A DNA stretch of 37,782 bases, taken from NCBI GenBank assembly GCA_022827345.1, contig JAJDTB010000067.1, forward strand, positions 1 to 37,782. The letters run 5' to 3'. The notes beneath the pieces are model-generated. The model was not told the origin of the DNA. It ran no database searches and saw nothing but the letters and a program-made list of their open reading frames with translations. The stretch is from Gemmatimonadota bacterium (GTDB taxonomy: Bacteria; Gemmatimonadota; Gemmatimonadetes; Longimicrobiales; Gaopeijiaceae). Of this stretch, positions 865-37,782 are shown one piece after another (position 1 is the stretch's first letter; each line of letters starts with the position of its first letter). The position numbers and the translations under genes are program-made.

Positions 865-3624
865 CTATCGCCGGGGCACTGGATGCGTGATCCAGGCGCG
901 GATCACCGCGCCTCGGGCCGCGTCGTCTCCGTCTCGTGGGCGCACGATTTCCATGCCGGTCGAGCGGATGGTCCAAACCGCCGCCGCCGGCTCCGCAATC
1001 AGACTGCCGCCCGATTCGGCACGCGCTCTGATGCTGCCCCGGGTTACACGCCGGTTCACGATCTCGCATCCGCTGCTGCTCAGGCAACTGTAGCGAATGT
1101 TGTTGTGGATCATGTACGAGCTTGTGCCGGTAAAGCGCACCGTCACGACGCCGCCCGAGATCGAGACACTGGCGCCGCCGGCCACCGTGTTCGGGAACCA
1201 GGTGCCCGTCGGCAGCGTCGCGATCGTCTGGCCCGTGGTGTAGGTGGTGTCGGCGCCGCTGCCGCCCGTTTGCACTGTGACCGTGATCGCCGAAGAGCAG
1301 TTGTTGTTGGTGTTGGACTCTCCGGAGACGGGGGCAACGCAATCTCCGATGTAAACCGTTCCCGGGGGGGCTTGCGCATTGATCGTGATCGTAAACGAAC
1401 CTTTGGCCTCCTCCGACGGATTCAGGGCCGGCACGGTCTTGGGTTGCCCCAGGGGGGTGTCCGTGGTGGAGATGGTCGAATTGTCCGAAACGTACGTTTG
1501 GGTCGTGGTTGCGGCCGATCGGGCGTCGCCCTGGTTGCGCACCGTCGCGTCGTACGAGAAGCTGCCTCCTGGCGCCACCGTCACGCTGGACGGCGATACG
1601 CCCGCCACCAGATCGGGTCCGCCCCCAGACCCCCCGACCGTCACCCGGACACCTCGCGAGCAGTTGTTCGTCGTGTCGGATTCGCCGGAGACGGCGTCCA
1701 CACAGAGTCCGAAATAGAAGGTGCCGGAGGCTTGGCTGGACAATTGGACCGTCGTCGGGACGGTCCTGCTCTGTCCTGCCCCGAGACTGGGCGTGGAACC
1801 GCGACCGATCTCCGTGTCGCTGGTCGAGATGGACGAATTGGTGGACTGGTAGACGCGGATCGTGGTGGCCGATGCCATCGCGTTGCCGGAATTCCGCAGC
1901 GTGAAGGTGGCTCGCACCGTGCCGCCCGGCGACCCCGTAACCGAAGTTGGCGTGACGCTGGTGAACTCCAGATCCGGTGCGCCCGACGACCTCACCGTCA
2001 CGCTCGCCGTCTGCGTCGCGGTCAGCCCACCCGGGTCCCGGGCCGTGATCGTAATCGTCGCGCTCCCGGCGGCGACCGCCGTGATCGTGACGGTCGAACC
2101 CGACACCGAGGCCCTGGCCACGCTCGAACGCGATGACGTCGCGGCGTAGGTCAAGGCGTCCCCGTCCGGATCGCTGAAGTACTGGGACGCGCTAACGGTG
2201 GCCCTCCCGCCGGGGGCCAGCGTGCGGGCAGGGATACTCCCAACCGCGCGCGGCGCACGGTTTGATTGGCTGACCGTAACCCTCGCCGTTTGAGTCGCAC
2301 TCAGTCCACCCGGATCCCGGGCCGTAACCGTGATCGTCGCGCTTCCGGTCGCAACCGCAGTGATCGTGACCGTCGAGCCCGACACCGAAGCCCTGGCCAC
2401 ACCCGAATTCGATGAGGTCGCGCTGTATCTCAGGACGTCTCCATCGGGATCGCTGAAGTACCGGGACGCATTGACGGTGCCTGACCCGCCGGGAGCCAGC
2501 GTTTGCACGGGAATGGACCCCACCCGGCGCGGCGCCCGGTTGGGCTGCGGCACCGTCACGCTCACCTGCTGGGTCGCCGTCGCCCGCTCGTCGTCCCTCG
2601 CCGTGATGGTGACGGTCGCCGTGCCCGGCCCCTGCGCCGTGATGGTGACCACGCTGCCCGACACGCTCGTGCGGGCAACCGCGGGGATCGAGGAGGCGGC
2701 CGTGTAGGTCAGCGCGTCGCCGTCGGGGTCGTCGAACGAAGCGGCCACGTCGAGGGTGGCCGACTGGCCCACCTCGACCGTTTGCGGCTGAAGCGCGCCC
2801 ACGGGCGCGGGCGGCCGGTTGGGCACCGTGAACCGGAAGGACTGGGTGGCCGAGAGCCCTCCCGGGTCGCTCGCCGTGATGGTGATGGTGGCGCTGCCCT
2901 TGGCCTCCGCCGTGACCGTGATCGTCGAACCCGCGACCGTGACGCTCGCCAGCGCGCCGTCCGACGCGCTGGCCGCGTAGGTCAGCGCCTGTCCGTCCGG
3001 ATCCGAGAAGTACTGGCCCGCGTCGACCGTCGCGGTGGCGCCGACGCGGACGGTGACGTCCGGCGGCGTGCCGCGCGGCTGCGGCGCCCGGTTCGGGACC
3101 ATGACCGCGAAGCTCGACTGGCCCTGAAGCCCGTCGGGGTCGCTGGCCGTCACCGTGACCGTCGTGTTGCCGGGCGCGATCCCGGCGACGGTGATCGAGG
3201 GGCCGGAAATCGAGGCCGTGGCCACGGCCGGGTTCGAAGACGCAGCCGTGTAGCTTAGCATGTCGCCGTTCGCGTCGTTGAAGCAGGCGGCGACGATCGC
3301 TGTCTCGCCGACGTTGACCGTCACCTGCGGGAGCGGGCCGCAGGCGGCCGGCGCAACCGGACTCTCGCAGGCGGCCGCCCACAGTGCGATCAGGAGAACT
3401 GGAACAGTCCGCAGAAGGCGGCGAGCACCTGCCACGCGGTGTGTTGGGGCCGGCAGGGCATCGGTCGGGTACGTGGATCGGTCGGTCATGGGTCGGTCGG
3501 TCATGGGTCGGTCGGTCCTCTTGCTGGACGTGACAGGTAGGGCATCGGTTGGGCAGGCTCGCGGTGCGGCGAGGGACGCGTTGCGGTCGCGGACGGAACC
3601 GGGGATGCGGGCTCGAACGTTCAT
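865..3624 (-). CDS. lipoprotein with five Ig-like modules and two CARDB domains
   Basis: A surface-anchored, probably adhesive or scaffold protein of 919 residues. A hydrophobic stretch ending in LIALWAAAC (about residues 76-86) is a lipobox signal. Five Ig/cadherin-like modules follow, each with a [FY]xDPDG(D/Q)xLxY core and a TASDP(D/G)GL strand and separated by VPNR-type linkers. Then come two CARDB-like domains (start motifs PDLEFTSVTPTSV and PDLVAGVSPSSV, each with SGESxxxNNC) and a C-terminal domain of about 130 residues with two cysteines that I cannot assign. The start at 3624 overlaps the upstream stop as ATGA, implying translational coupling. However, it leaves an n-region of about 70 residues before the signal. 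ATG 3504 (with AGAGGA about 12 bases upstream) and ATG 3489 lie in a short tandem repeat and give a more normal signal. No catalytic motif is seen. Confidence 0.85.
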   Translation of the reverse strand: MNVRARIPGSVRDRNASLAAPRACPTDALPVTSSKRTDRPMTDRPMTDRSTYPTDALPAPTHRVAGARRLLRTVPVLLIALWAAACESPVAPAACGPLPQVTVNVGETAIVAACFNDANGDMLSYTAASSNPAVATASISGPSITVAGIAPGNTTVTVTASDPDGLQGQSSFAVMVPNRAPQPRGTPPDVTVRVGATATVDAGQYFSDPDGQALTYAASASDGALASVTVAGSTITVTAEAKGSATITITASDPGGLSATQSFRFTVPNRPPAPVGALQPQTVEVGQSATLDVAASFDDPDGDALTYTAASSIPAVARTSVSGSVVTITAQGPGTATVTITARDDERATATQQVSVTVPQPNRAPRRVGSIPVQTLAPGGSGTVNASRYFSDPDGDVLRYSATSSNSGVARASVSGSTVTITAVATGSATITVTARDPGGLSATQTARVTVSQSNRAPRAVGSIPARTLAPGGRATVSASQYFSDPDGDALTYAATSSRSSVARASVSGSTVTITAVAAGSATITITARDPGGLTATQTASVTVRSSGAPDLEFTSVTPTSVTGSPGGTVRATFTLRNSGNAMASATTIRVYQSTNSSISTSDTEIGRGSTPSLGAGQSRTVPTTVQLSSQASGTFYFGLCVDAVSGESDTTNNCSRGVRVTVGGSGGGPDLVAGVSPSSVTVAPGGSFSYDATVRNQGDARSAATTTQTYVSDNSTISTTDTPLGQPKTVPALNPSEEAKGSFTITINAQAPPGTVYIGDCVAPVSGESNTNNNCSSAITVTVQTGGSGADTTYTTGQTIATLPTGTWFPNTVAGGASVSISGGVVTVRFTGTSSYMIHNNIRYSCLSSSGCEIVNRRVTRGSIRARAESGGSLIAEPAAAVWTIRSTGMEIVRPRDGDDAARGAVIRAWITHPVPRR
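3478..3515. repeat. 15-bp tandem repeat duplicating a start codon
   Basis: About 2.5 copies of a 15-bp unit (GGTCGGTCATGGGTC on the plus strand). On the minus strand it encodes the repeated peptide MTDRP and so gives the 865-3624 gene two extra candidate ATG codons, at 3504 and 3489. The unit length is a multiple of three, so copy-number change would keep the reading frame. A looser repeat flanks it, encoding PTDALP on both sides. Confidence 0.8.
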
Positions 3625-5951
3625 GGACGGATGACCCCCACCACGCGTCCGTTCCGGTCACGCACCTCGACGGGGATGCGGATCACGTCGTCGCCGAGAT
3701 CGACAGCGCGCATCCGATGGACCCGAAGTGCAGCCGCGTCCGGGAGGCGAAAGGCGTCGGCGAGGTTCGTTCGCACGGCATACCCGAGGTCCGCGAGCGA
3801 CGCGGCCGTCACCGCACTTAGGGGACTCGATCCGGGCGCAATGCTTGGGGTCATCAGCTCCGGGCCGAAGACGCTCTTGCGCCAGTGCACATCGTCGCTC
3901 CCCCGTCGCGTGCCCCGGTTCGCCACCGGCACCTTCGCGCCCGCCGTGTAGGAAGCGCCTCCGACCTCGTCGAACGCCCGGATCGCCCGTGCGCCCGCGA
4001 AGTGGGTGTCCACCTCCCTCTCCGCCGCCAGCGAGGGATTGCGCAGCAGGCCGAAGGCGCCCCACAGCGTCCCGATCCCGAGCACATGGCCCATCTCGTG
4101 CACGATCACGTTTTCGAGGGTGCCGTTCGCCTCCATCCGTTCCAGATCTGCGGCGTCGAACTCCATCGCGCCGAGCCAGGGCAGCCGCGACTCCTCACGG
4201 ATGCCAGCGGGGCCGGCTTGGCCCAAGGTCTCGCCGACACCATCGATCTCGGCAACCGCCGCGATGATCATCAGGTCGTCGACGACGCTCACGCTCTCCC
4301 GATACGTCCTGCCGTCGATCCGGACCTCGACCACGCCCTCCGGAACGGGCATGTCCGGCAACTCCGTGTCCGCCAGCAGCGCCATCCAGCGCGCCGAAGC
4401 GCGCTCGAACGCCGCCTTCTGGGTCGAGCTCATCTCAGTGGCAAGGCGAAGCTCGATCCGGAAGGAGCCCGGCGGTTCCTCGCCGCCCACCGTCGCCCGG
4501 AACGACAGCGTGGCCGCCAGCCCGCCCGGATCGGCCGCCGTCACGGCGATCTCCGCCACGCCCTTGCGCGCCCCCGTCAGCTCGAGCGTCGATCCGAAGA
4601 CCTTCACGGCGGCGATCCCGGTATCCGAGGATGAGGCCGAATAGGTCAGCGGATCCCCGTCGGGGTCGGAAAAGTACGCCGAAACGTCGAGCGCGGCCGT
4701 TTCGCCGACACGGACGTTCCGGTCCGGAATCGCGCCTGCCGGCTCGGGGCCGCGGTTGGCGACGGTTGTCTCGAAAGCCTGCGTGGCGCCGAGGCCGCCG
4801 GGATCGGTGGCCATCACCTCGATGATGGCCGAGCCCCTCGTCACCGCCGCCACCGTCACCGCCGATCCGGAAACGGAAACGGTCGCCACCGAGGGATCCG
4901 ACGAGGACGCCGCGTATCCGAGCGTGTCCCCGTCGGGGTCGTCGAAGTAGGCCGAGACGTCCACGGACGCCGTCTCTCCCGGCCGGATCGACCGGCGCGG
5001 GATCGAACCCACGGGGCGCGGAGCGCGATTGGGCGCCTCGGCGCCGAAGCTGTGGGTCCCCGTCAGCCCGTCGGGGTCGCGCGCCGTGACGGTGACCGTG
5101 GTGCGGCCGGCCGCGAGCGCGGTCAGCCGAAGCGCCGCGCCGAAGGCGGCCGCCGCCACCGCGCCGGGACGCGACGACGACGCGGTGTAGGTCAGCGGGT
5201 CCCCGTCGGGATCGTCGAACCAGGGCACCAGATCGATCACGCGCGTCTCGCCGCGCTCCATGACCTGGCCCTCGATCGAGCCCACCGCCACCGGTCCCCG
5301 GTTCGGCACCTCGAATCCGAACGTCTGCACCGCCGCCAGCCCGCCCGGATCGGTGGCCGTCGCCGTGATGACGGCCTCCCCCTTCGCCAATCCCGCCAAG
5401 GTGGCGCGGGCGCCGGACAGCGCCACCCCGACCACCGCCGCATCGGACGGGACGACCCGGAAGGATAGCCTTTCGCCGTCCGGCTCCTCGAACCAGGACG
5501 CCAGATCGACGACGACCTCGCGCCCGGCCTCCGCCCGCTGGGCCGGGATGCTCCCGCGTGCCCGGGGTGGGCGGTTCGGAACCACGACCCGGAAACTCGC
5601 CCGGCCCTGAAGTCCGCCGGCGTCGCTTGCCGTAAGGATGATCTCCGCGCTGCCCGGCGCGACCGCGATCACGTTGACGACGCTGCCGGCCAACGACGCC
5701 GTGGCCACCGAAGGGTTGGAGGACGCCAGCGCTAAGCCCAGCGCGTCGCCGTTCGGATCGTTGAAGCACGCCGTGACGCTCGCCGTCTCGCCGACATGCA
5801 CCGTGACCTGCGGGAGCGGGCCGCAGGTCATCGGGGCCATGGGACTCTCGCAGGCGGCGAGGATCACGGACGACAGCAGCGCCCCCGCCATCGGCGCCGG
5901 ACGGACGCGAAGGCGTCGCGCCGCAATCGCGGACGACTCTTCAATCACCAC
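3621..5951 (-). CDS. lipoprotein with five Ig-like modules and a leishmanolysin-like zinc protease
   Basis: A predicted exported zinc metalloprotease of about 776 residues. The signal ends in LLSSVILAAC (lipobox). The next residues, CESPMAP and CGPLPQVTV, nearly match the neighbouring 865-3624 protein, so the two are duplicates at the N-terminus. Five Ig/cadherin-like modules fill about residues 35-510. The C-terminal domain has HEMGH (about residue 618), then a far-downstream third histidine in DDVHW and a Met-turn-like ELMTPS. This is the split HExxH...H arrangement of the leishmanolysin (M8) metzincins, rather than HExxHxxGxxH. The start is uncertain: GTG 5951/5948 gives a normal signal n-region, ATG 5891 (MAGALLSS) is also possible, and the frame is open further upstream to 6743 through the minisatellite. 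It overlaps the start of the next gene by ATGA. Substrate unknown. Confidence 0.87.
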   Translation of the reverse strand: MVIEESSAIAARRLRVRPAPMAGALLSSVILAACESPMAPMTCGPLPQVTVHVGETASVTACFNDPNGDALGLALASSNPSVATASLAGSVVNVIAVAPGSAEIILTASDAGGLQGRASFRVVVPNRPPRARGSIPAQRAEAGREVVVDLASWFEEPDGERLSFRVVPSDAAVVGVALSGARATLAGLAKGEAVITATATDPGGLAAVQTFGFEVPNRGPVAVGSIEGQVMERGETRVIDLVPWFDDPDGDPLTYTASSSRPGAVAAAAFGAALRLTALAAGRTTVTVTARDPDGLTGTHSFGAEAPNRAPRPVGSIPRRSIRPGETASVDVSAYFDDPDGDTLGYAASSSDPSVATVSVSGSAVTVAAVTRGSAIIEVMATDPGGLGATQAFETTVANRGPEPAGAIPDRNVRVGETAALDVSAYFSDPDGDPLTYSASSSDTGIAAVKVFGSTLELTGARKGVAEIAVTAADPGGLAATLSFRATVGGEEPPGSFRIELRLATEMSSTQKAAFERASARWMALLADTELPDMPVPEGVVEVRIDGRTYRESVSVVDDLMIIAAVAEIDGVGETLGQAGPAGIREESRLPWLGAMEFDAADLERMEANGTLENVIVHEMGHVLGIGTLWGAFGLLRNPSLAAEREVDTHFAGARAIRAFDEVGGASYTAGAKVPVANRGTRRGSDDVHWRKSVFGPELMTPSIAPGSSPLSAVTAASLADLGYAVRTNLADAFRLPDAAALRVHRMRAVDLGDDVIRIPVEVRDRNGRVVGVIRP

Positions 5952-6060
5952 CCGGAAGCGCTCGGGTGAATCCAGTCTGCGGACGGCGAACGGGCCTGCC
6001 GCTCGATCCCCTTGTCTTCGCCGCCCCGAACGCGCGGGGCCAGCGCGGTTACTGCATATG

Positions 6061-6147
6061 GACGGCTGGACGGCTGGACGGCTGGACGGCTGGACGGCTG
6101 GACGGCTGGACGGCTGGACGGCTGGACGGCTGGACGGCTGGACGGCT
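6061..6147. repeat. 8-bp minisatellite, about 11 copies
   Basis: A perfect tandem array of GACGGCTG, 10.9 copies in 87 bp, immediately upstream of the protease lipoprotein gene. The unit is not a multiple of three, so slippage would shift any frame read through it. All three plus-strand frames are open here and encode the same 8-residue period out of phase; the minus strand reads AVQPSSRP repeats. No interspersed spacers are present. Confidence 0.97.
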
Positions 6148-6984
6148 CCCTGCCGCGAGCCTACGGTACCCACCGACCCGGCGCAATAGCTTGCGCGGAC
6201 CCTCAACTTTTTGCACAGGCCCTCAACCTTTCCGTGCCGATTGACACCGATTGACCCACGGTGCCTTTTCGCGACCTGCGTGTCGCCAGACGCTACGTTC
6301 ATGGTAGCCGCCCCGGTTGGCAGTTGCAATGAAGCGAGGCTCGATCTCGGCACGCCCAACAATCCGGTCGGCCACTCTGTCGCCGACGCGCGCGATTGAC
6401 GGTGCTCCGCCGCCTCGAAGCGGCGCTGAACGGCCTTGCGGCACGGATCGTTGGTGCCATGGGCGACCCGGTCCCTCAACCGCAAGCAGGACCGACTGGA
6501 GCGCGAGGCTGTCTCCACTGTCAACCGGTAAGGGAGCCGTGCCGGTCGGGTTTTCGCCGGATGCCGGGGACGAATTGCGTGGACGGTGGACAACCCGGGC
6601 GACACGGGATTGCGGAGGCCGCCATGCCGGACCTCCGGCAGACCGTGGACCTGAACACCTTCCGTTGGCCCCCCCAACCGTCTTCCCCTTTGGTGGTGAG
6701 AAGCCTCCGCAGTGGTGTCGAGCAGCGTTGGTACCCAAGCCAACCAACTGAAGCTTGCTCACGGTGGTCGGCGGCATCGTATGGATTCGTTCCCCGGGAC
6801 ACACAACCGACTGTTGGTCATGGTCTTGGAGCAACAGCGCCGGGCTTCCCCCGTCCGGCGAAGACGCGCTCCATCCTCTTGCAGCCGCCACATGGTGGTT
6901 TACATCATGGTAGGGTATGGCACTCTGGAAACGCCCCCCGAAAACGGAAGCCATGCGGTCGGCACTCCGCGGAAGGAGGTGGAA
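6148..6984. other. gene-poor stretch, no supported gene
   Basis: More than 800 bases with open frames on both strands but nothing I can recognise as a protein. The frames look like products of high GC: low-complexity, rich in Arg, Pro and Gly, and lacking ribosome binding sites. Small features are a near-duplicate CCCTCAAC-T-rich motif at about 6199 and 6222 and a GATTGAC direct repeat near 6240-6255. It may contain decayed sequence, or the promoter of the minus-strand lipoprotein pair. Confidence 0.5.
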
Positions 6985-7773: not shown

Positions 7774-7903
7774 GGGCGAAAGTCCCGCCATTCAAGTGCG
7801 TGTTTCCCGCTTTCGCGGCGCGTTCCAACAGGGTCCAGTCCAACGGCAGGAAACGCAGATCGTGCAGCCCTGTAAGACTTTAGACGATTCCCTGCCGTGA
7901 TTC
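7774..7903 (-). repeat. degenerate dispersed repeat, copy A (inverted relative to 32334-32462)
   Basis: Read on the minus strand, this 130-bp segment aligns without gaps to plus-strand 32334-32462, at about three-quarters identity by eye. Many differences fall at third codon positions of one shared frame. That frame reads GLHDLRFLPL-W-LL-RA-K-G in both copies, so the repeat seems to be a decayed coding fragment. The protein of origin is not recognised. Confidence 0.7.
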
Positions 7904-7919
7904 AGGCCCTCGGCGATCC

Positions 7920-7936
7920 GCCGTAACGTCAGGGTT
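7920..7936 (-). repeat. 17-bp motif shared with 31773-31789
   Basis: On the minus strand this reads AACCCTGACGTTACGGC, identical to plus-strand 31773-31789. Similarity continues weakly for about 10 more bases outward (GTAG then ACC). It lies only 16 bp from copy A of the dispersed repeat, whereas at the other locus the two parts are 544 bp apart. Confidence 0.65.
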
Positions 7937-30707: not shown

Positions 30708-31780
30708 GGTCGCCGCCGAGGCGGCACTATGGGGATCCCGCGGCGGAGTATCGGGCGGCGGTGGAGGGGTGCGGGGTGGTGGTGCGCGGGGATCGGCGGC
30801 TGTTGCGGGTGCATGGGCGGGCGCCGGTGCAGATGTTGGATGGGATCGTGACGAGTCGGATTCCGGGGGCGCCGGTGGTGGGCGGCGACCTGGCCGATTC
30901 GACGACCCTCACTGGCGATGCCGTCTACGGGACCATGCTCACCGCCAAGGGGCGCATGGTCAGCGACGTGGTGACCCTCTGGCTTGGGGCGGGTGAGGAG
31001 GAGGGGTTGGGATTGAGTGTTGCGGAGGTCGCCCACGAGGCGGTCCTGGCGCATTTCAGGCGGTTTCTCCCTCCGAGGCTTGCGCGATGCGAAGACCTCG
31101 GCGAGGGGACGCGGCTACTCACGGTGGTGGGGCCGGGGGCGGGTGAGGTCATTGCGGCGGTGTTTGGTGATGCGCCGGCGGACGGGTTCATGCTGGTTGA
31201 CGGTGGGCCGCTCGGTGGCGGGGCGCTGGTGGCGCGAGGGGTGCGCCAGGTGCCGTCCTGGGATGTGTGGGTTGCGGCGAACGCGCTGTCAGGCGTGTGG
31301 GGGGATCGGCTGCGGGAGCACGGTGCGATCCCGGTGGGTGCGGGAGCGTGGGACACGCTGCGCGTCGAGGCCGGCTTCCCGGAATTCGGCATCGACATGG
31401 ACGACAGCACGATCCCGGTCGAGGCGGGGCTGGTGGACGTCGCGTTCGATCACGCCAAGGGGTGCTATACGGGACAGGAAGTCATCGTGCGGATCCGGCA
31501 CCGTGGGCGGGTGAACTGGCACCTGAGGGCGCTGCGGTTCGGGGATGCCGCGGCGCGGCCCGGGGCGCAGCTGTTCGAGGCGGGTGGGACGAAGGTGCGG
31601 GGTCGTGTGACTTCGGTGGCGGATTCGCCGCGGTTCGGGCAGGTGATCGGGCTGGGGTATGTGCGGCGGGAGGTCGAGCCGCCAGCCGCGGTGAGGTTGG
31701 GAAGCGGGGAGGGGGCGGAGGTTGGGGTGGAAGAGTTGCCGGGCAGTGGAGCTGCTCCTGCAGTAGCCGACCAACCCTGA
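30701..31780 (+). CDS. ygfZ: folate-binding protein YgfZ, iron-sulfur cluster repair
   Basis: A 359-residue protein of the GcvT-like fold. It binds tetrahydrofolate and helps repair or mature certain 4Fe-4S enzymes such as MiaB. The hallmark KGCYTGQE (family KGCYxGQE) with its reactive cysteine is present, about residue 254, in HAKGCYTGQEVI. N-terminal features RLLRVHGRAPVQMLDGIVTS and LLTxxGRM-like LTAKGRMVSDV match the family. GTG 30701 is chosen because it overlaps the SirB1-like stop in another frame and keeps the family's opening Y-x-x-AVxxG region. The C-terminal 30 residues are low-complexity and end at the shared 17-bp repeat motif, so the tail may have been altered by the rearrangement described there. 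Confidence 0.9.
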   Translation: MVGSPPRRHYGDPAAEYRAAVEGCGVVVRGDRRLLRVHGRAPVQMLDGIVTSRIPGAPVVGGDLADSTTLTGDAVYGTMLTAKGRMVSDVVTLWLGAGEEEGLGLSVAEVAHEAVLAHFRRFLPPRLARCEDLGEGTRLLTVVGPGAGEVIAAVFGDAPADGFMLVDGGPLGGGALVARGVRQVPSWDVWVAANALSGVWGDRLREHGAIPVGAGAWDTLRVEAGFPEFGIDMDDSTIPVEAGLVDVAFDHAKGCYTGQEVIVRIRHRGRVNWHLRALRFGDAAARPGAQLFEAGGTKVRGRVTSVADSPRFGQVIGLGYVRREVEPPAAVRLGSGEGAEVGVEELPGSGAAPAVADQP

Positions 31781-31789
31781 CGTTACGGC
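31773..31789 (+). repeat. 17-bp motif shared with 7920-7936, at the ygfZ stop
   Basis: AACCCTGACGTTACGGC is identical to the minus strand at 7920-7936. It contains the TGA stop of ygfZ (31778-31780). It marks the left side of the segment that holds the integrase fragment. See the repeat copy at 32334 for the right side. Confidence 0.65.
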
Positions 31790-31883
31790 ATGCGTTCTCA
31801 AATCTGTATCTCGTTCAATCACTGATTGTTACGCGCTCCGTCGGCCAGATTCCCGCTAAATGACTCCCGCTGATCCGTGAGCT

Positions 31884-32333
31884 TCAGCCGCCGGGTCTCC
31901 GGCGGGCTTCCAGTGCCTTCCGAAGCTGTCCCTCGTCGGCTCGCTGATAGCACTGGAGCACCGTCTTGGCGGTCTTCCAGCCGCCAAGCTCGCAAAGCAC
32001 CTTCAGCGGCTGGTCCATGAGGTCCGAAGCAAACTTGCGCCTCAGCGAGTGCCAGCCCCGTCCGGGCTTCGGCTCCAGCCCCGCGAGCGTCTGGGCCTTG
32101 TACCACCACGCGCGCACCACCGACCGGCCCGCGCACTTCGAGGCCTCCCTCGGCGCGGGCAGCACCGGAGTGTCGTCAAGTCCCGAACTCCTCTCCCGCG
32201 CTTCCTCCAAGGCGGCCAACGCTTCGACCGTCACCGGCGTCCGGTGCTCGTAGCCGGTCTTCTCGTGCTCCGCCCGCCACCGCACCACTCCGCCTTCGAG
32301 GTCGATGTCCGCCCAGCGGATTGTAGGCAGCCG
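31884..32333 (-). pseudogene. tyrosine recombinase (phage integrase) C-terminal fragment
   Basis: A 149-residue open stretch covering only the C-terminal part of the catalytic domain. It starts at RLPTIRWADIDLEGGVV, a typical integrase strand, and includes KTGYEHRTPVT, HSLRRKFASDL (the HxxR pair), LGGWKTAKTVLQCY (tryptophan in the second-histidine place, then the nucleophile Tyr). The first catalytic Arg, the N-terminal core-binding and arm-binding domains are gone. Homology stops exactly where the dispersed repeat at 32334 begins, and an in-frame TGA (32337-32339) follows. There is no start codon in the proper place. A CCGCCGG-GTCT-CCGGCGG hairpin at 31888-31905 overlaps its 3' end. A relic of an integrated element. 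Confidence 0.8.
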
Positions 32334-32462
32334 GAATCACGGCAGAAGATCGTCTAACTGTATACGGGACTGCACGATCTGCGCTTTCTGCCGTTGTACT
32401 GGATCCTGCTGGACCGTGCCATGAAACCGGGAATCCCGGACCTGATTGGCGGGATTTCCCCC
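32334..32462 (+). repeat. degenerate dispersed repeat, copy B
   Basis: Matches the minus strand of 7774-7903. The shared frame on the plus strand reads GLHDLRFLPLYWILLDRA here. Its left end abuts the integrase fragment precisely. In this copy the 17-bp motif is 544 bp away instead of 16 bp. The remaining 50 bp to the adhesin stop at 32512 show nothing recognisable. Confidence 0.7.
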
Positions 32463-32511: not shown

Positions 32512-35500
32512 TCAGAACGTGAAGTCGAGCGCGAGTCTAAGTCCGAGGTCGGGTTGTTGACCGGGCAGTTGGCTGCGCGAGCCCTCGAAGCCGAGTCTGA
32601 GTGTCTGGCCGACCCGGTATCCCGCCCCGAGCGACCATGCCCGGTTCCCGCCGTGGGCGGAAAGCCGGGTATAGCTGTCGAGCGCGCCTCCGCCCTCGGG
32701 GTTCTTGAGCGCGTATCCGGCCTCGGCGTCGAGACGCCATTGTCCTTGCTCGTCGGTCGGTATGTGCCGGAACGCGTGGCCGTCCATGAGACCGTGGACT
32801 CCGCTCCGGTCGTGACCCTGGCTGGGGCTGATCGCGAGGCGGAACCCTTCGCCCCGGGTGCCGGGATCGAACGCGATCCTTAGCGCGGCGCCCCATTCGC
32901 GGTGTCGGCCGGAGCCGAGCGCGAGCCTTCCCCGGAGGTCGAGGTCGAGCCCGCGGCCCGCGTAGCCGACCGAGGCGCCGGTCTCGGCTCCGCCGCCGGT
33001 GTCGGCGTCGCCGCCGTCGTATCGAGCTCCGGCCTCGGTGGCGAGCTTGAGTCCTCCGATCATCCATGACGCTTCGAGCAGGGCGCGTGCGCGCGAGGCC
33101 ATGCCTTCGCGCCGCCCGTCGTCGGCGCGCATGCCAACCGTGAATGCGTCGCCCTTGAGGGCGAGCCCGAACGCGCCCTGTTGCGCGAGCGGCGCGTTGA
33201 GGCCGCCGGAGAGCATCCGGAGCGACGCGTCGCCGGTGTCCCCTCGATGGTCGTCGCCGCCCACCTCTCCGCCGCCGTATCCGGCCATGGCCCAGAGTCC
33301 GATGCCGGCGGAAGGCTGAACAAACAGGTAGGGATGCACGCTGTTAATAGCGTGTCCGAGCGAACCGGCGACGGACCGGTGACCGTAGTCGAGGTCGCCG
33401 TCGCTGCGCATGAGCGAGACCCCGAACAGCGCGGACGAGCCGATGCGGGCGTCGGCGCCGACGGTGAGCGCGCGCAGGCCGCCGTCGTACTCGACGCCCG
33501 GCTCGCCGCGGAACGATTGGGCGGAGCCTTCGGCCCAGAGCCCGAACCGTGGCATGCCCGGCGCGGACTGCGGCCCAAGGCCGGTGGCGAACGAGACGCT
33601 CGGCAGCAGACGGACTGCGGCCTCCCGCGCGCCGGGCAGTTCGGGCGCCCCGGAGCGTCGTCCGATCTCGGCGGCAGAGAACGGGTTGAGCGAGACGCCC
33701 GCGAGCGAGGCGAGCGTTCCCGCGGCGCGGCCCGCCCAACCGGATGGGGAACCGGTCGCGGCGGAGCCGCCCGGCGAGGGCCGCATGACGGCGTCGATGC
33801 GCGCGCCGACGGCCTGTCGCGCACCCTCGGCCACCGCGCGTCCGAAGACGGCGAGGCCGACATCGAACGCCTCGTCCCGGAGCGCGCCGTCGTCGCGCGC
33901 CGCGATCCGAACCGTGGCGGAGGCGGCCGTGCCCGCGTTCACGGCTTCGGGCAGCGCTCCGAACCCGAGCGCCATGAGGCCGGACGGGGCTTCGGCCGGG
34001 ATGTCGAGCGTGAACGCCGCGAGCGAGTCGCCGGGCTCGAAGACGACCGGCTCCGGGACGATGGGAATGGACACCCCCCGGTCCATGACGGCCGAGAGAG
34101 GCACCGCCACCCGCCGGTCGGCTGCGGGACTGATCCGCAGCGTGACTTCGGTCCCTCGCGCCCCGGCCGTCGCCGTGTACGCCGCCGCCGCGAACTCGAC
34201 TTCGAGTTCGGCGGGCTTACCGTTGTCGACCACCGCGGCGGCGGCCCTGTCGCTCGCAACCGCCGCGACGACGACTCGCGTGGTCGCCGGCACTCCCACG
34301 GCCACGCCGTCGGGCAGATCGCCGAACCGGACCTCGACGGTGTCGGACGCCGAGAGTCCCGCCGTGCCGACCGTGACGTTTGCCGAGCCCGCTCCGGGCT
34401 GGAACGTGGCTGTGTGCTTCGAGTCGCCCGCAACGACCTCGACGGAGAGCGCCGCCGAGCCCGCGGGAGACAGCAGCACCGAGACATCGACCGATGCGCC
34501 CTGGGCGACGGTGTAGGTGTCCGCGCCGAACGAGACCACCGGCGTGTTGGCTCCGACGACCGCCACCGCCGCGCTCTCCGCCCGCTTGCCGGGTCCGTGG
34601 CCGTCGGTGTAGGCGAACACGGCGCGCAGGTGTTTGCCCGCGTCGGCTTCGGCCGGCGTGTAGAACCGGGTCCGCGCGCCCGCGATGTTCGTCCACGACG
34701 CGCCGCCGTCGCCCGAGCGCTGCCAGCGCCGCGTCTTGCCCGCCTCTTTCGATCCGTCCTGGTCCATGAGCGTCGCGGCCAGCCGCTCGCCCACCCGCGC
34801 CACGTCCGCGCTCACCGCGATCTTGCCCGGATCGTCCGCGTTCGTGACTTGGATCCTGACCGACGCGGTGTCGGCAAGCTCGCCGTCGCTCGCCTCGACC
34901 TTGACGTTGTACAGCGTGTTCCCGCTCTCGTAGTCGAGCACCGCGCCCTCGGCCACGGTGATCTGGCCCGTCGAGGCCTCGATCCCGAACAGCGCCTCGT
35001 CCCCGCCGGGCACGAAGGCGTAGGACAGCGACGCGCCGTCGTCCGGATCGGTCGCGGCCACCGGAGCGCCGACCGCCGTCCCGCCCGGCGAGTTCTCCGG
35101 CACCTCACGGTCCAGCGCCGTGGGGAACGTCGGCGCCGTGTTCGCGGGCAGCACCTCGACCGCCTCGCTCGACGCCCGCTTGCCCTTCCCGTGGCCGTCG
35201 TCGTAGGTGAACACCGCGCGCAGCCACCGGCCCTCGTCGTTCGTGCCGGGCGTGTACTTGCGGCCCGATGCGATGTCGTTCCACGAGCTGCCGCTCCTGG
35301 ACCGCTGCCACTTCCGCGTCCTGCCCGCGCTCCGCGCGCCGTCCTCGTCGGTCAGCATGGCGGTCAACTCGACGCCCACCCGCGCCACCGCGGGGCTCAG
35401 CGTCACCACGCCCGGATCGTCCGCGTCGGTCACGCGGATCGCCACCGACGCGGTGTCGGCCAGTTCGCCGTCGCTCGCCTCGACACCGACCGCATACAGT

Positions 35501-37782
35501 GTGTCGCCGCTCTCGTAGTTCAGCAACGCGCCGTCGGCCACCCTGATCTGGCCCGTCGAGGCGTCGATCCCGAACAGCCCGTCCTCGTTCCCGGAGGCCA
35601 AACTGTAGGACGGCGGCGTGCCGTCCGGGTCGGTCGCCGCCACCGGCGCGCCGACGGCCGTGCCGCCCGGCGAGTTCTCCGGCACCTCGCGCTCGTACAC
35701 GGCGGGGAACTTCGGAGCCGCGTTCGCGGCCAGCACCTTGACCGGCGCGCTCACCGCCCGCTTGTTCGGCCCGTGACCGTCGGCGTAGGTGAAGACCATG
35801 CGCAGCCACCGGCCCTCGTCGGCCGTCACGGGGTTGTACATCCGGCCCTTGCCGATGTCGTTCCACGAGTTGCCGTCGCGCGACCGCTGCCACTTCCGCG
35901 TCCTGCCCGCGCTCTTCACGCCGTCCTCGTCGGTCAGCATCGCGGTCAACTCGACGCCCACGCGCGCCACCGCGGGGCTCAGCGTGACCTCGCCCGGATC
36001 GTCCGCGTTCGTCACGCGGATCGTGACCGACGTGGTGTCCGCAAGCTCGCCGTCGCTCGCCGCGACGTGGACCATGTAGAGCGTGTCCGCGCTCTCGTAG
36101 TTCAGCGCCGTGCCCCCGGCCACCGCGATCCGGGCCGTCGCCGCGTCGATCTCGAACAGGGTTGCGTCTCCGCCCGTTGTGAAGCTGTAGGCCAGATCGT
36201 CCGCGTCCGCATCGGTGGCCGTCACGGGCTCGCCCACCGCCGTGCCCGCCGCCGAGTTCTCCGGCACCTCGCGCTCGTACGCGTCCGCGCCGAAGACGGG
36301 CGCGCGGTTGGCCGCCTCCGTCGTCCCCTCGCCGGACTCCGACCACTCGCCCGCGCCTTCGGAACTCTCGGCGCGCACCTGCACGAAGTACGCCGTTCCC
36401 GCGCCGAGCCCCGTGATCTTGTGAGCCAGCACCGCTCCGAGCGACGACACGTCCGTCCAATCGTTGTCCTGGTTCGCACGGTGGCGGAGGTCGTAGTTCG
36501 TGATCGCGGGTCCATCGTTGGGCGGAGCGCTCCACGACACCGACACCTCGCCCGTTCCGCCCTTCACCACGGGCGCGTCCGGCTTGCCCGGCGCGGGAAC
36601 GTCCGTCACCCGGATCTTCACCTCGGTCGCATCCACGAGCTTCCCGTCACTCACCTGGAGATGGACCGTGTACACCTTCTTGTCGCCCTCGAAGTCGAGC
36701 GCCGCGTCGGCGGCCACCGTGATCTGGGCGCTCTCCTTGTCGATCTCGAAGAACGTCTCGTCTCCGCTGGCGATGAAGGCGTAGGTCAGGTCGTCCCCGT
36801 CCTCGTCGGTGGCCGTCACGGGCTCGCCCACCGCAGTGCCGGGCGCCGAGTTCTCCGGCACTTCGCGCTCGTATAAGTGCGAGCCGAATACCGGCGCGTG
36901 GTTGACCGCCTCCTCCGTCGTCCCCTCGCCGGACTTCGACCATTTGCCCGCGCCCTCCGAACTTTCCGCGCGCACCTGCACCTCGTACATCGCTCCCGCG
37001 TCGAGCCCGGCGATCGTGTGAGCCGACACGGCCCCCAGCGCCGCGAGCTTCGTCCACTTGTTGTCCTGGTTCGCCCGGTAGCGCAGGTCGTAGCCCGTGA
37101 TCGCCGGACCGTCATTCGACGGCGCACTCCACGACACCGATACCTCGCCCTCGCCGCCCGTCACAGTCGGTGCGTCCGGCCTGCCCGGCGCGGGAACATC
37201 CGTCAGCCGGATCGTCACCGGCGCCCGGTCCGAAAGCGTCCCGTCGCTCGCCTCGACTTGGACCGTGTAGACGTTCTTCTCGCTCTCGTAGTCGAGCGCC
37301 GCGCCCTCGGCCACCGTGATCCGGCCGCTCGAAGTGTCGATCTCGAAGGAGGCCTCGTCGCCGCCCGCGACGAAGGCGTACTTCAGGTCGTCGCCGTCCT
37401 TGTCGGTGGCCGTCACGGGCGCGCCCACCGCCGTGCCGCCCGCCGAGTTTTCGGGCACCTCGCGCTCGTAGGCGTCCGCGCCGAACGCGGGAGCGTGGTT
37501 GGACGCTTCCGTCGTTCCCTTGCCGGAGGCCGACCACTCGCCCGCGCCCTCCGAACTCTCCGCCCGCACCTGCACCTCGTACGTCGTGCCCGCATCGAGC
37601 CCGGTGATCGTGTGGGCCAGCACCGCGCCCAGCGCCGACAACTCCGTCCACTCGTTGTCCGTGCTCCCCCGGTAGCGAAGGTCGTAGTCCGTGATCGCCG
37701 GACCCTCATTCGTCGGTGCGCTCCACGACACCGACACCTGTTCCGTTCCGCCCGCCACCACCGGCGCGTCCGGCCTGCCCGG
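32512..37782 (-). CDS. giant FN3/cadherin/Ig repeat adhesin with C-terminal outer-membrane beta-barrel, 5' end beyond window
   Basis: At least 1,755 residues are present and the N-terminus lies beyond the right edge. From the right: alternating fibronectin type III modules (GEVSVSWSAPxNDGPAIT-YDLR) and cadherin-like modules (YEREVPENSxxGTAVG, ATDxDGD, LDYES, VTNADDP) three times. Then come Ig-like modules (VARVGVELTAMLTDEDG, RTRKWQRS, YTPG-DEGRWLR) alternating with cadherin modules, then a Calx-beta-like segment. The last 350 or so residues form an autotransporter-like barrel: FGLWAEGSAQSFRG, repeated amphipathic strands, and a terminal LALDFTF with C-terminal Phe, the usual signal for barrel insertion. 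It is probably a surface adhesin. The recombinase relic lies just past its 3' end. Confidence 0.9.
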   Translation of the reverse strand, partial: PGRPDAPVVAGGTEQVSVSWSAPTNEGPAITDYDLRYRGSTDNEWTELSALGAVLAHTITGLDAGTTYEVQVRAESSEGAGEWSASGKGTTEASNHAPAFGADAYEREVPENSAGGTAVGAPVTATDKDGDDLKYAFVAGGDEASFEIDTSSGRITVAEGAALDYESEKNVYTVQVEASDGTLSDRAPVTIRLTDVPAPGRPDAPTVTGGEGEVSVSWSAPSNDGPAITGYDLRYRANQDNKWTKLAALGAVSAHTIAGLDAGAMYEVQVRAESSEGAGKWSKSGEGTTEEAVNHAPVFGSHLYEREVPENSAPGTAVGEPVTATDEDGDDLTYAFIASGDETFFEIDKESAQITVAADAALDFEGDKKVYTVHLQVSDGKLVDATEVKIRVTDVPAPGKPDAPVVKGGTGEVSVSWSAPPNDGPAITNYDLRHRANQDNDWTDVSSLGAVLAHKITGLGAGTAYFVQVRAESSEGAGEWSESGEGTTEAANRAPVFGADAYEREVPENSAAGTAVGEPVTATDADADDLAYSFTTGGDATLFEIDAATARIAVAGGTALNYESADTLYMVHVAASDGELADTTSVTIRVTNADDPGEVTLSPAVARVGVELTAMLTDEDGVKSAGRTRKWQRSRDGNSWNDIGKGRMYNPVTADEGRWLRMVFTYADGHGPNKRAVSAPVKVLAANAAPKFPAVYEREVPENSPGGTAVGAPVAATDPDGTPPSYSLASGNEDGLFGIDASTGQIRVADGALLNYESGDTLYAVGVEASDGELADTASVAIRVTDADDPGVVTLSPAVARVGVELTAMLTDEDGARSAGRTRKWQRSRSGSSWNDIASGRKYTPGTNDEGRWLRAVFTYDDGHGKGKRASSEAVEVLPANTAPTFPTALDREVPENSPGGTAVGAPVAATDPDDGASLSYAFVPGGDEALFGIEASTGQITVAEGAVLDYESGNTLYNVKVEASDGELADTASVRIQVTNADDPGKIAVSADVARVGERLAATLMDQDGSKEAGKTRRWQRSGDGGASWTNIAGARTRFYTPAEADAGKHLRAVFAYTDGHGPGKRAESAAVAVVGANTPVVSFGADTYTVAQGASVDVSVLLSPAGSAALSVEVVAGDSKHTATFQPGAGSANVTVGTAGLSASDTVEVRFGDLPDGVAVGVPATTRVVVAAVASDRAAAAVVDNGKPAELEVEFAAAAYTATAGARGTEVTLRISPAADRRVAVPLSAVMDRGVSIPIVPEPVVFEPGDSLAAFTLDIPAEAPSGLMALGFGALPEAVNAGTAASATVRIAARDDGALRDEAFDVGLAVFGRAVAEGARQAVGARIDAVMRPSPGGSAATGSPSGWAGRAAGTLASLAGVSLNPFSAAEIGRRSGAPELPGAREAAVRLLPSVSFATGLGPQSAPGMPRFGLWAEGSAQSFRGEPGVEYDGGLRALTVGADARIGSSALFGVSLMRSDGDLDYGHRSVAGSLGHAINSVHPYLFVQPSAGIGLWAMAGYGGGEVGGDDHRGDTGDASLRMLSGGLNAPLAQQGAFGLALKGDAFTVGMRADDGRREGMASRARALLEASWMIGGLKLATEAGARYDGGDADTGGGAETGASVGYAGRGLDLDLRGRLALGSGRHREWGAALRIAFDPGTRGEGFRLAISPSQGHDRSGVHGLMDGHAFRHIPTDEQGQWRLDAEAGYALKNPEGGGALDSYTRLSAHGGNRAWSLGAGYRVGQTLRLGFEGSRSQLPGQQPDLGLRLALDFTF
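34555..37782 (-). repeat. modular repeat array, period about 580-595 bp, within the adhesin gene
   Basis: The DNA encoding EFSGTSR/YEREVPENS recurs near 35090, 35671, 36256, 36847 and 37441, intervals of 581, 585, 591 and 594 bp. The rightmost three periods are FN3 plus cadherin, the next ones cadherin plus Ig. High similarity between copies could allow in-frame gain or loss of modules. Confidence 0.85.

Follow-up and report, generated by a model that had tools for sequence, protein, structure and literature searches.

A giant adhesin gene with a predicted barrel anchor as probable cargo of multicopy tyrosine-integrase elements in Gemmatimonadota

Introduction

How does a bacterium come by a gene for a giant surface adhesin, and how does such a gene change? 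The question is raised by a 37,782-nucleotide stretch of DNA (hereafter the window) from a Gemmatimonadota bacterium (GCA_022827345.1, contig JAJDTB010000067.1), the right end of which is filled by a gene for a cadherin/FN3 protein. The window is the whole of contig C61, one of the 75 contigs of a 4.79-Mb genome (G000). Cadherin/FN3 attachment genes are enriched in sponge symbionts, where lateral transfer was inferred to be 'potentially mediated by MGEs' (PMC8163846). The genes described there are of the same kinds as the one studied here; the passages on them name no carrier, and the main text of that paper does not contain the word 'integrase'. We analyzed the gene, its flanks, and its relatives in other genomes, metagenome assemblies among them.

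Results

Extent and modules of the adhesin gene

The 3' part of the adhesin gene lies on the minus strand at 32512–37782 (1756 codons read, stop codon at 32512–32514). The reading frame is open on its 5' side, and the 5' end falls beyond the contig. Pfam profiles matched cadherin domains in five stretches (PF00028, E 6e-58, 193.7 bits against a cut-off of 28.8) and FN3 domains in three (PF00041, E 3e-35). All repeat units are on the minus strand. Five cadherin cores, placed by repeat family D1, Pfam, and motif positions, lie within 34825–37482 (37183–37482, 36586–36885, 35992–36291, 35410–35709, and 34825–35124). FN3 module 1 (37508–37782) is truncated by the contig end, and modules 2 and 3 follow at 36914–37188 and 36317–36591 (repeat family D2 and Pfam). 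A third, Ig-like repeat type has three copies within 34540–35838 (35716–35838, 35134–35256, and 34540–34662; repeat family D5).

A first-pass annotation of this DNA had described near-identical modules with a YEREVPENS motif. The modules are there: YEREVPENS or DREVPENS occurs at residues 105, 304, 502, 696, and 891, and successive modules are spaced by 597, 594, 582, and 585 bp. "Near-identical" was an overstatement, as the copies are 66–83% alike. Compared to a reference copy of each type, identity is 66–77% for the cadherin cores, 80–83% for the FN3 modules, and 67–72% for the third type, with one 300-bp pair at 83%. The longest exact stretch common to two modules is 33 bp in the window copy and 54 bp in a sister copy that begins contig C44 (copies A and B, respectively).

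In classical cadherins, a DxNDN motif forms the calcium linker between successive domains. This linker is absent after all five cadherin domains of the adhesin, which end in VTDVPAP/LTDVPAP, VTNADDP, or VTDADDP, so the protein does not qualify as a classical calcium-dependent cadherin. PEN, DxD, and LDYE-type motifs do occur in these domains.

The annotation had also proposed that the protein changes length by recombination between its modules. Copies A and B are identical at 4890 of 5271 bases (92.8%). Their alignment contains no indel, neither reading frame has an internal stop, and the proteins differ at 149 of 1756 residues. Four adhesin copies from three species align without a gap over 3737 bp. 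Length change by module recombination thus finds no support in the 3' part of the gene. As the main source of change, recombination between near-identical modules that alters protein length is unlikely. The modules are real, and the contigs break inside the gene, as longer identical repeats upstream would cause. However, modules that are 66–83% alike and two gap-free alignments, over 5271 bp and 3737 bp, speak against it, and the break is explained by the A/B pair itself. Contigs C61 and C44 end at the same base of the gene, where they have exactly 141 identical bases in common; because related records have contig names that start with k141, this is likely an assembler break at a shared 141-mer. 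What the copies do display is exchange and movement of the whole gene.

That the 5' part contains more modules, another expectation of the annotation, was confirmed by longer relatives. The relative in G011:C35 extends over 2872 aa before its contig ends too. The one in G009:C40 can be traced from its stop over ∼12.0 kb to a start; it contains a single frameshift, at about 405.6 kb, and has a length of about 4,000 codons. Its added 5' part contains Calx-beta, PKD, and further Ig-like domains, and its N-terminus, read by eye, resembles a signal peptide. We looked for the adhesin N-terminus in the window's own genome and did not find it: the 5' part common to the C61 and C44 copies is missing from the genome bin, and the gap between contigs presumably holds the 5' half of the gene.

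The C-terminal barrel

The C-terminal part of the adhesin (32515–33549, minus strand) is a predicted outer-membrane beta-barrel of 18 strands whose last residue is Phe. Such a barrel had been suggested from the sequence, and the structure prediction that we ran on the last 380 aa agrees with it: the model, built from 38 sequences with a mean pLDDT of 72.6, contains 18 long beta-strands, and its top structural matches are mostly outer-membrane barrels (CdiB, FhaC, Hbp, EspP, AIDA-I). The mitochondrial barrels TOM and VDAC are also among the best matches. The structural matches of an earlier, weaker model (pLDDT 61.5) were outer-membrane barrels as well.

Like type V autotransporters, the adhesin combines an N-terminal passenger with a C-terminal outer-membrane barrel, and the autotransporter barrels of Hbp, EspP, and AIDA-I are among its top matches (Z 15.9–14.8). 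However, a type Va barrel has 12 strands versus 18 in the model (pLDDT 72.6), and autotransporters are not the sole top matches. The autotransporter barrel profile PF03797 is not among the 16 Pfam families that matched at E up to 1, and NCBIfam gave no match for the barrel.

The domain content, the predicted barrel, the terminal Phe, and the signal-peptide-like N-terminus of the full-length relative all agree with the original suggestion of a self-anchored surface protein. We therefore predict that the adhesin is a giant multi-domain surface protein that anchors itself through its C-terminal outer-membrane barrel. After secretion, the barrel would hold the protein while its cadherin, FN3, and Ig-like modules project as a long rod for attachment.

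The ∼140-bp repeat behind the gene

About 40 bp past the adhesin stop begins a ∼140-bp repeat (32316–32454, minus strand), with an imperfect hairpin and the outer end ATCCG(C). We aligned 24 copies in the window's genome and found matches in all 23 genomes of the genus, at 3 to at least 36 per genome. In a sample of 298 genomes of the phylum, 40 carry the repeat (18 in the genus, 11 elsewhere in the family, and 11 in one genus of another family). Most copies have unrelated sequence on both sides.

Homology between adhesin copies ends at the outer end of the repeat. In 15 of 16 distinct adhesin copies, the repeat is located directly 3' of the stop, and these copies lie in 12 different flank contexts. 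The 16 copies are those in C61, C44, and G011:C35 plus the 13 closest loci (12 of 13 with the repeat), four of which are the same contigs as the G022, G013, G009, and G011:C138 copies. In about half of the 15, the repeat is divergent, matches the consensus only in part, or was found via a second seed. The two Latescibacterota loci (L168 and L169, 32% identity) were excluded from this count. A locus with a 54% identical adhesin (L167) is without the repeat.

Two readings of the repeat as part of an integron were tried and rejected. It resembles an attC site in its length class (120–140 bp) and hairpin, but the core motifs did not fit by eye, and the integrase scored 18.8 bits with the integron integrase profile TIGR02249, far short of the cut-off of 265. 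The same score speaks against an integron gene cassette. A search of the window against Rfam gave no match to a known RNA family. The fold of a consensus copy is only modestly stable relative to shuffles (z −1.98), and, read as a coding stretch, one strand is open in one copy.

A further right-end copy is found in the window at 7783–7921 on the plus strand, followed at 7922–7934 by the target half CGTAACGTCAGGG; its element would lie to the left. To the left of it are two large Ig-like surface proteins (868–3624 and 3624–6743), the second with a leishmanolysin-like stretch; the two may be cargo of a further element, truncated where the contig starts. Elsewhere in the genome, a DUF222 gene (L152:9734–10609) lies between two inverted right-end repeats (L152:9312–10699, G000:C51). 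A different barrel adhesin (L009:15040–19815, G000:C59; barrel 32% identical; Big_9, cadherin, and Calx-beta domains) has a right-end repeat directly behind its stop.

Anatomy of the tyrosine-integrase elements

Sequence comparison marks the ∼140-bp repeat as the right end of tyrosine-integrase elements that form a multicopy family. Each element is roughly 3.5 to 13.5 kb long and has an outward-reading integrase gene at one end and the repeat at the other. We compared 13 long stretches with 16 right ends in all. Inward of 13 right ends lies an integrase, which reads outward in all 13 cases. Two of these right ends share one integrase, and the three others had none in the stretch. Two integrases matched PF00589 with E 2e-17 and 8e-17, and an integrase fragment in the window matched with E 5e-10, which identifies them as tyrosine recombinases. 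Integrase matches (E up to 1e-40) numbered 38 in G000, 7 in G001, 9 in G021, 19 in G009, 19 in G013, 23 in G022, and 21 in G011, while right ends numbered at least 36, 10, 6, 20, 19, 29, and 23, respectively. Integrase copy number resembles right-end copy number across the seven genomes. In six repeat-bearing stretches from outside the genus, no integrase was seen in 1.7–7.8 kb of the inner side, so that transfer of whole elements between families is a tentative reading.

Two insertions compared with intact sites

We compared two insertions with the corresponding intact sites. The outer insertion lies behind ygfZ, a gene that matches the GCV_T profile. The close relative G009 has the intact site behind this gene (G009:C25), AACCCTGACGTTACGTTAGGGTT. 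In the window, the left half of the site, CCCTGACGTTACG (31775–31787), which is uninterrupted in G009, runs into the integrase end of an outer element. The left end of this element (31788–31886) carries paired TCCCGC motifs and is followed by a C-terminal fragment of its tyrosine integrase gene (PF00589; 31887–32321, minus strand), which is interrupted by the adhesin element. On the other side, in contig C41, the right half-site borders directly on a repeat copy, at the outer end of that copy. On G009:C25, the C61 and C41 half-sites overlap by 9 bp.

The inner insertion is that of the adhesin element itself. The right end behind the adhesin abuts the integrase gene at its RWADID codons, and in C41 a frameshifted N-half of an integrase stops at the same RWADID codons. 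Next to it lie a left end and a further integrase, which extends as far as the contig does. Because the two halves break at the same codons, the adhesin element must have inserted into the integrase gene of the outer element.

The sister copy has a different location. Its right end in C44 runs into a fragment of a gamma-glutamyltranspeptidase gene (intact relative PF01019), the N-half of which is found at C15:106406–107907; when placed on the intact gene of G009, the C15 and C44 halves have 13 bp in common. An integrase gene (C15:108012–109256) starts 105 bp inside the C15 junction. Locus L164, from another assembly, has the same gamma-glutamyltranspeptidase junction, which argues against an assembly error.

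Discrete ends, a short duplicated core, and an intact site elsewhere were thus found together at two insertions (9 bp and 13 bp). The duplicated core varies in length (9, 13, and about 15 bp, the last with one mismatch), so that the exact ends are uncertain by a few bases. A fixed 8-bp target duplication was considered and discarded since it fits the outer insertion only. The integrase is linked to the adhesin by the contig pairs C41/C61 and C15/C44 and by one complete element in the one-contig genome G001, in which a degenerate remnant of the adhesin 3' part lies immediately inward of the right end; none of the contigs contains both an integrase and an intact adhesin. In G009, no integrase was found over the ∼10.3 kb that separate the start of the adhesin from the end of its contig.

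Could the repeat instead be a MITE or a REP-like sequence that stood by chance behind an ancestral adhesin, homologous recombination having swapped the flanks with the integrases as bystanders? Tens of repeat copies, most with unrelated sequence on both sides, would be expected then, and recombination between repeats would also give each copy a different right flank. However, this does not account for the integrases, which lie inward of most right ends (13 of 16) and all read outward, nor does it predict two insertions with discrete left ends, an integrase just inside, and short duplicated cores. We consider it quite unlikely.

Taken together, these results make it highly probable that the adhesin, anchored by its own barrel, is cargo of a multicopy family of tyrosine-integrase elements, with one copy nested in another element behind ygfZ and a second copy in a gamma-glutamyltranspeptidase gene. 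Read from the sequences, the repeat is an element end, both insertions stand against intact sites, integrases occupy the other ends, and the gene has passed between species (see below). Insertion itself would be the work of the integrase, which would join a short core between the two ends of the element to a target. The target could be a palindrome between genes or a sequence within a gene that happens to match. The adhesin would ride just inside the right end.

At four adhesin elements (L162, L155, G011:C35 at L072:3500–3700, and window 32316), the right end abuts integrase sequence, as if the elements inserted by preference in each other's integrase genes.

Divergence and recombination of adhesin copies

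We compared the divergence of the adhesin with that of one core block, lon to ygfZ. The identity of this block to the window genome is 94% in G009, 82% in G013, and 77% in G022, while the adhesin is about 78% identical to the window copy in G009 and 93.4–93.6% identical in G022 and G013. Third-position divergence of Lon is 11.9% for G009, 35.1% for G013, and 39.5% for G022; that of the adhesin is 34.3%, 10.5%, and 11.9%, respectively, and 12.1% between A and B. The order for the adhesin is inverted relative to Lon, showing that the gene moved horizontally.

The four close adhesin copies support conflicting groupings, with 47 informative parsimony sites for A+G013, 41 for A+G022, and 22 for A+B. 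The conflicting sites are clustered along the gene (46 runs versus 71.3 expected, P about 5e-5), and the copies have therefore also recombined. That A, B, and the copies of other species are old, slowly evolving paralogues from an ancestral chromosomal duplication, with no need for transfer, is very unlikely: it would agree with A and B not being sister copies, since the sites favour A+G013 or A+G022 over A+B, but such paralogues should match core-gene divergence, whereas the adhesin shows 10.5–12.1% against 35–40% for Lon in the same genomes, in inverted order, and its copies sit in 12 flank contexts.

Carriers and other cargo

The barrel family occurs in all 23 genomes of the genus (the window's own included) and in none of 17 genomes outside. 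A single-protein search of named genomes returned 15 adhesin loci, the titles of which are mostly Candidatus Palauibacter or Gemmatimonadetes bacterium, with two Latescibacterota at 32% identity. Near relatives of the adhesin at L155, L159, and L166 are in bins labelled Alpha- or Gammaproteobacteria, which may reflect misbinning or transfer to other phyla. The carrier organisms probably live in sponges. The abstract of PMC10469786 lends support to this, and sponge hosts would be the setting.

Among the ORFs that adjoin right ends at the 24 copies, we selected ten and scanned them. Three had no match; the others contained a mechanosensitive channel helix, McrBC, a 6-bladed propeller, an SNF2 helicase, TPR, LRR with Big_1, and Big_2. 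Membership in an element is established for some of these neighbours only, such as McrBC in L041.

Discussion

In the open-licence literature, as far as titles and the opening lines of abstracts tell, we found no description of these elements. The nearest parallel for the cargo is Bap of SaPIbov2 in Staphylococcus aureus, where, like here, a giant multidomain surface adhesin is cargo of an integrase-bearing island. As described in PMC7785521, Bap is a Gram-positive protein accompanied by an ABC transporter on a pathogenicity island; here, in contrast, the protein has an outer-membrane barrel and the elements are small, with tens of them per genome. The tycheposons of Prochlorococcus and Methylophilaceae also combine a tyrosine recombinase with variable cargo, and, as a further likeness, casual inspection of some of the stretches studied here revealed no conjugation genes. 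According to PMC10872708, tycheposons are bordered by tRNA genes, whereas we found no tRNA gene in 11 loci of the elements studied here, which sets them apart; a right-end repeat and insertion into each other's integrases are features that we did not find described in the passages on tycheposons.

The ORFs beside right ends resemble the sponge-enriched, laterally transferred gene classes of PMC8163846, as far as that paper sets them out. The element family probably explains how attachment genes jump between related, apparently sponge-dwelling bacteria. A wider proposal is more tentative and, in our estimate, falls a little short of an even chance: that in marine symbiotic Gemmatimonadota these integrase elements, which accumulate inside each other's integrase genes, are a main vehicle for the spread of genes for host association and defence (giant cadherin/FN3 adhesins, Ig-, TPR-, and LRR-repeat proteins, McrBC, SNF2 helicases), and that this spread crosses genera and reaches at least two families.

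The carrier of such genes now becomes visible: the ends of the elements and their integrases can be seen, as can target sites with and without an insertion and two giant adhesin copies in one genome. Their position among repeats puts the adhesins at contig ends. PMC8163846 removed transfers at contig ends; surveys that discard them would miss these adhesins. The repeat provides a sequence tag for finding every such element, and with it one can count the symbiosis genes that move and the frequency with which they do so.

A last observation concerns the left part of the window. At 6059–6147, inside an ORF, the 8-bp unit TGGACGGC is repeated perfectly in tandem in 11 copies. Gain or loss of an 8-bp unit shifts the reading frame, and phase variation is therefore possible at this site.
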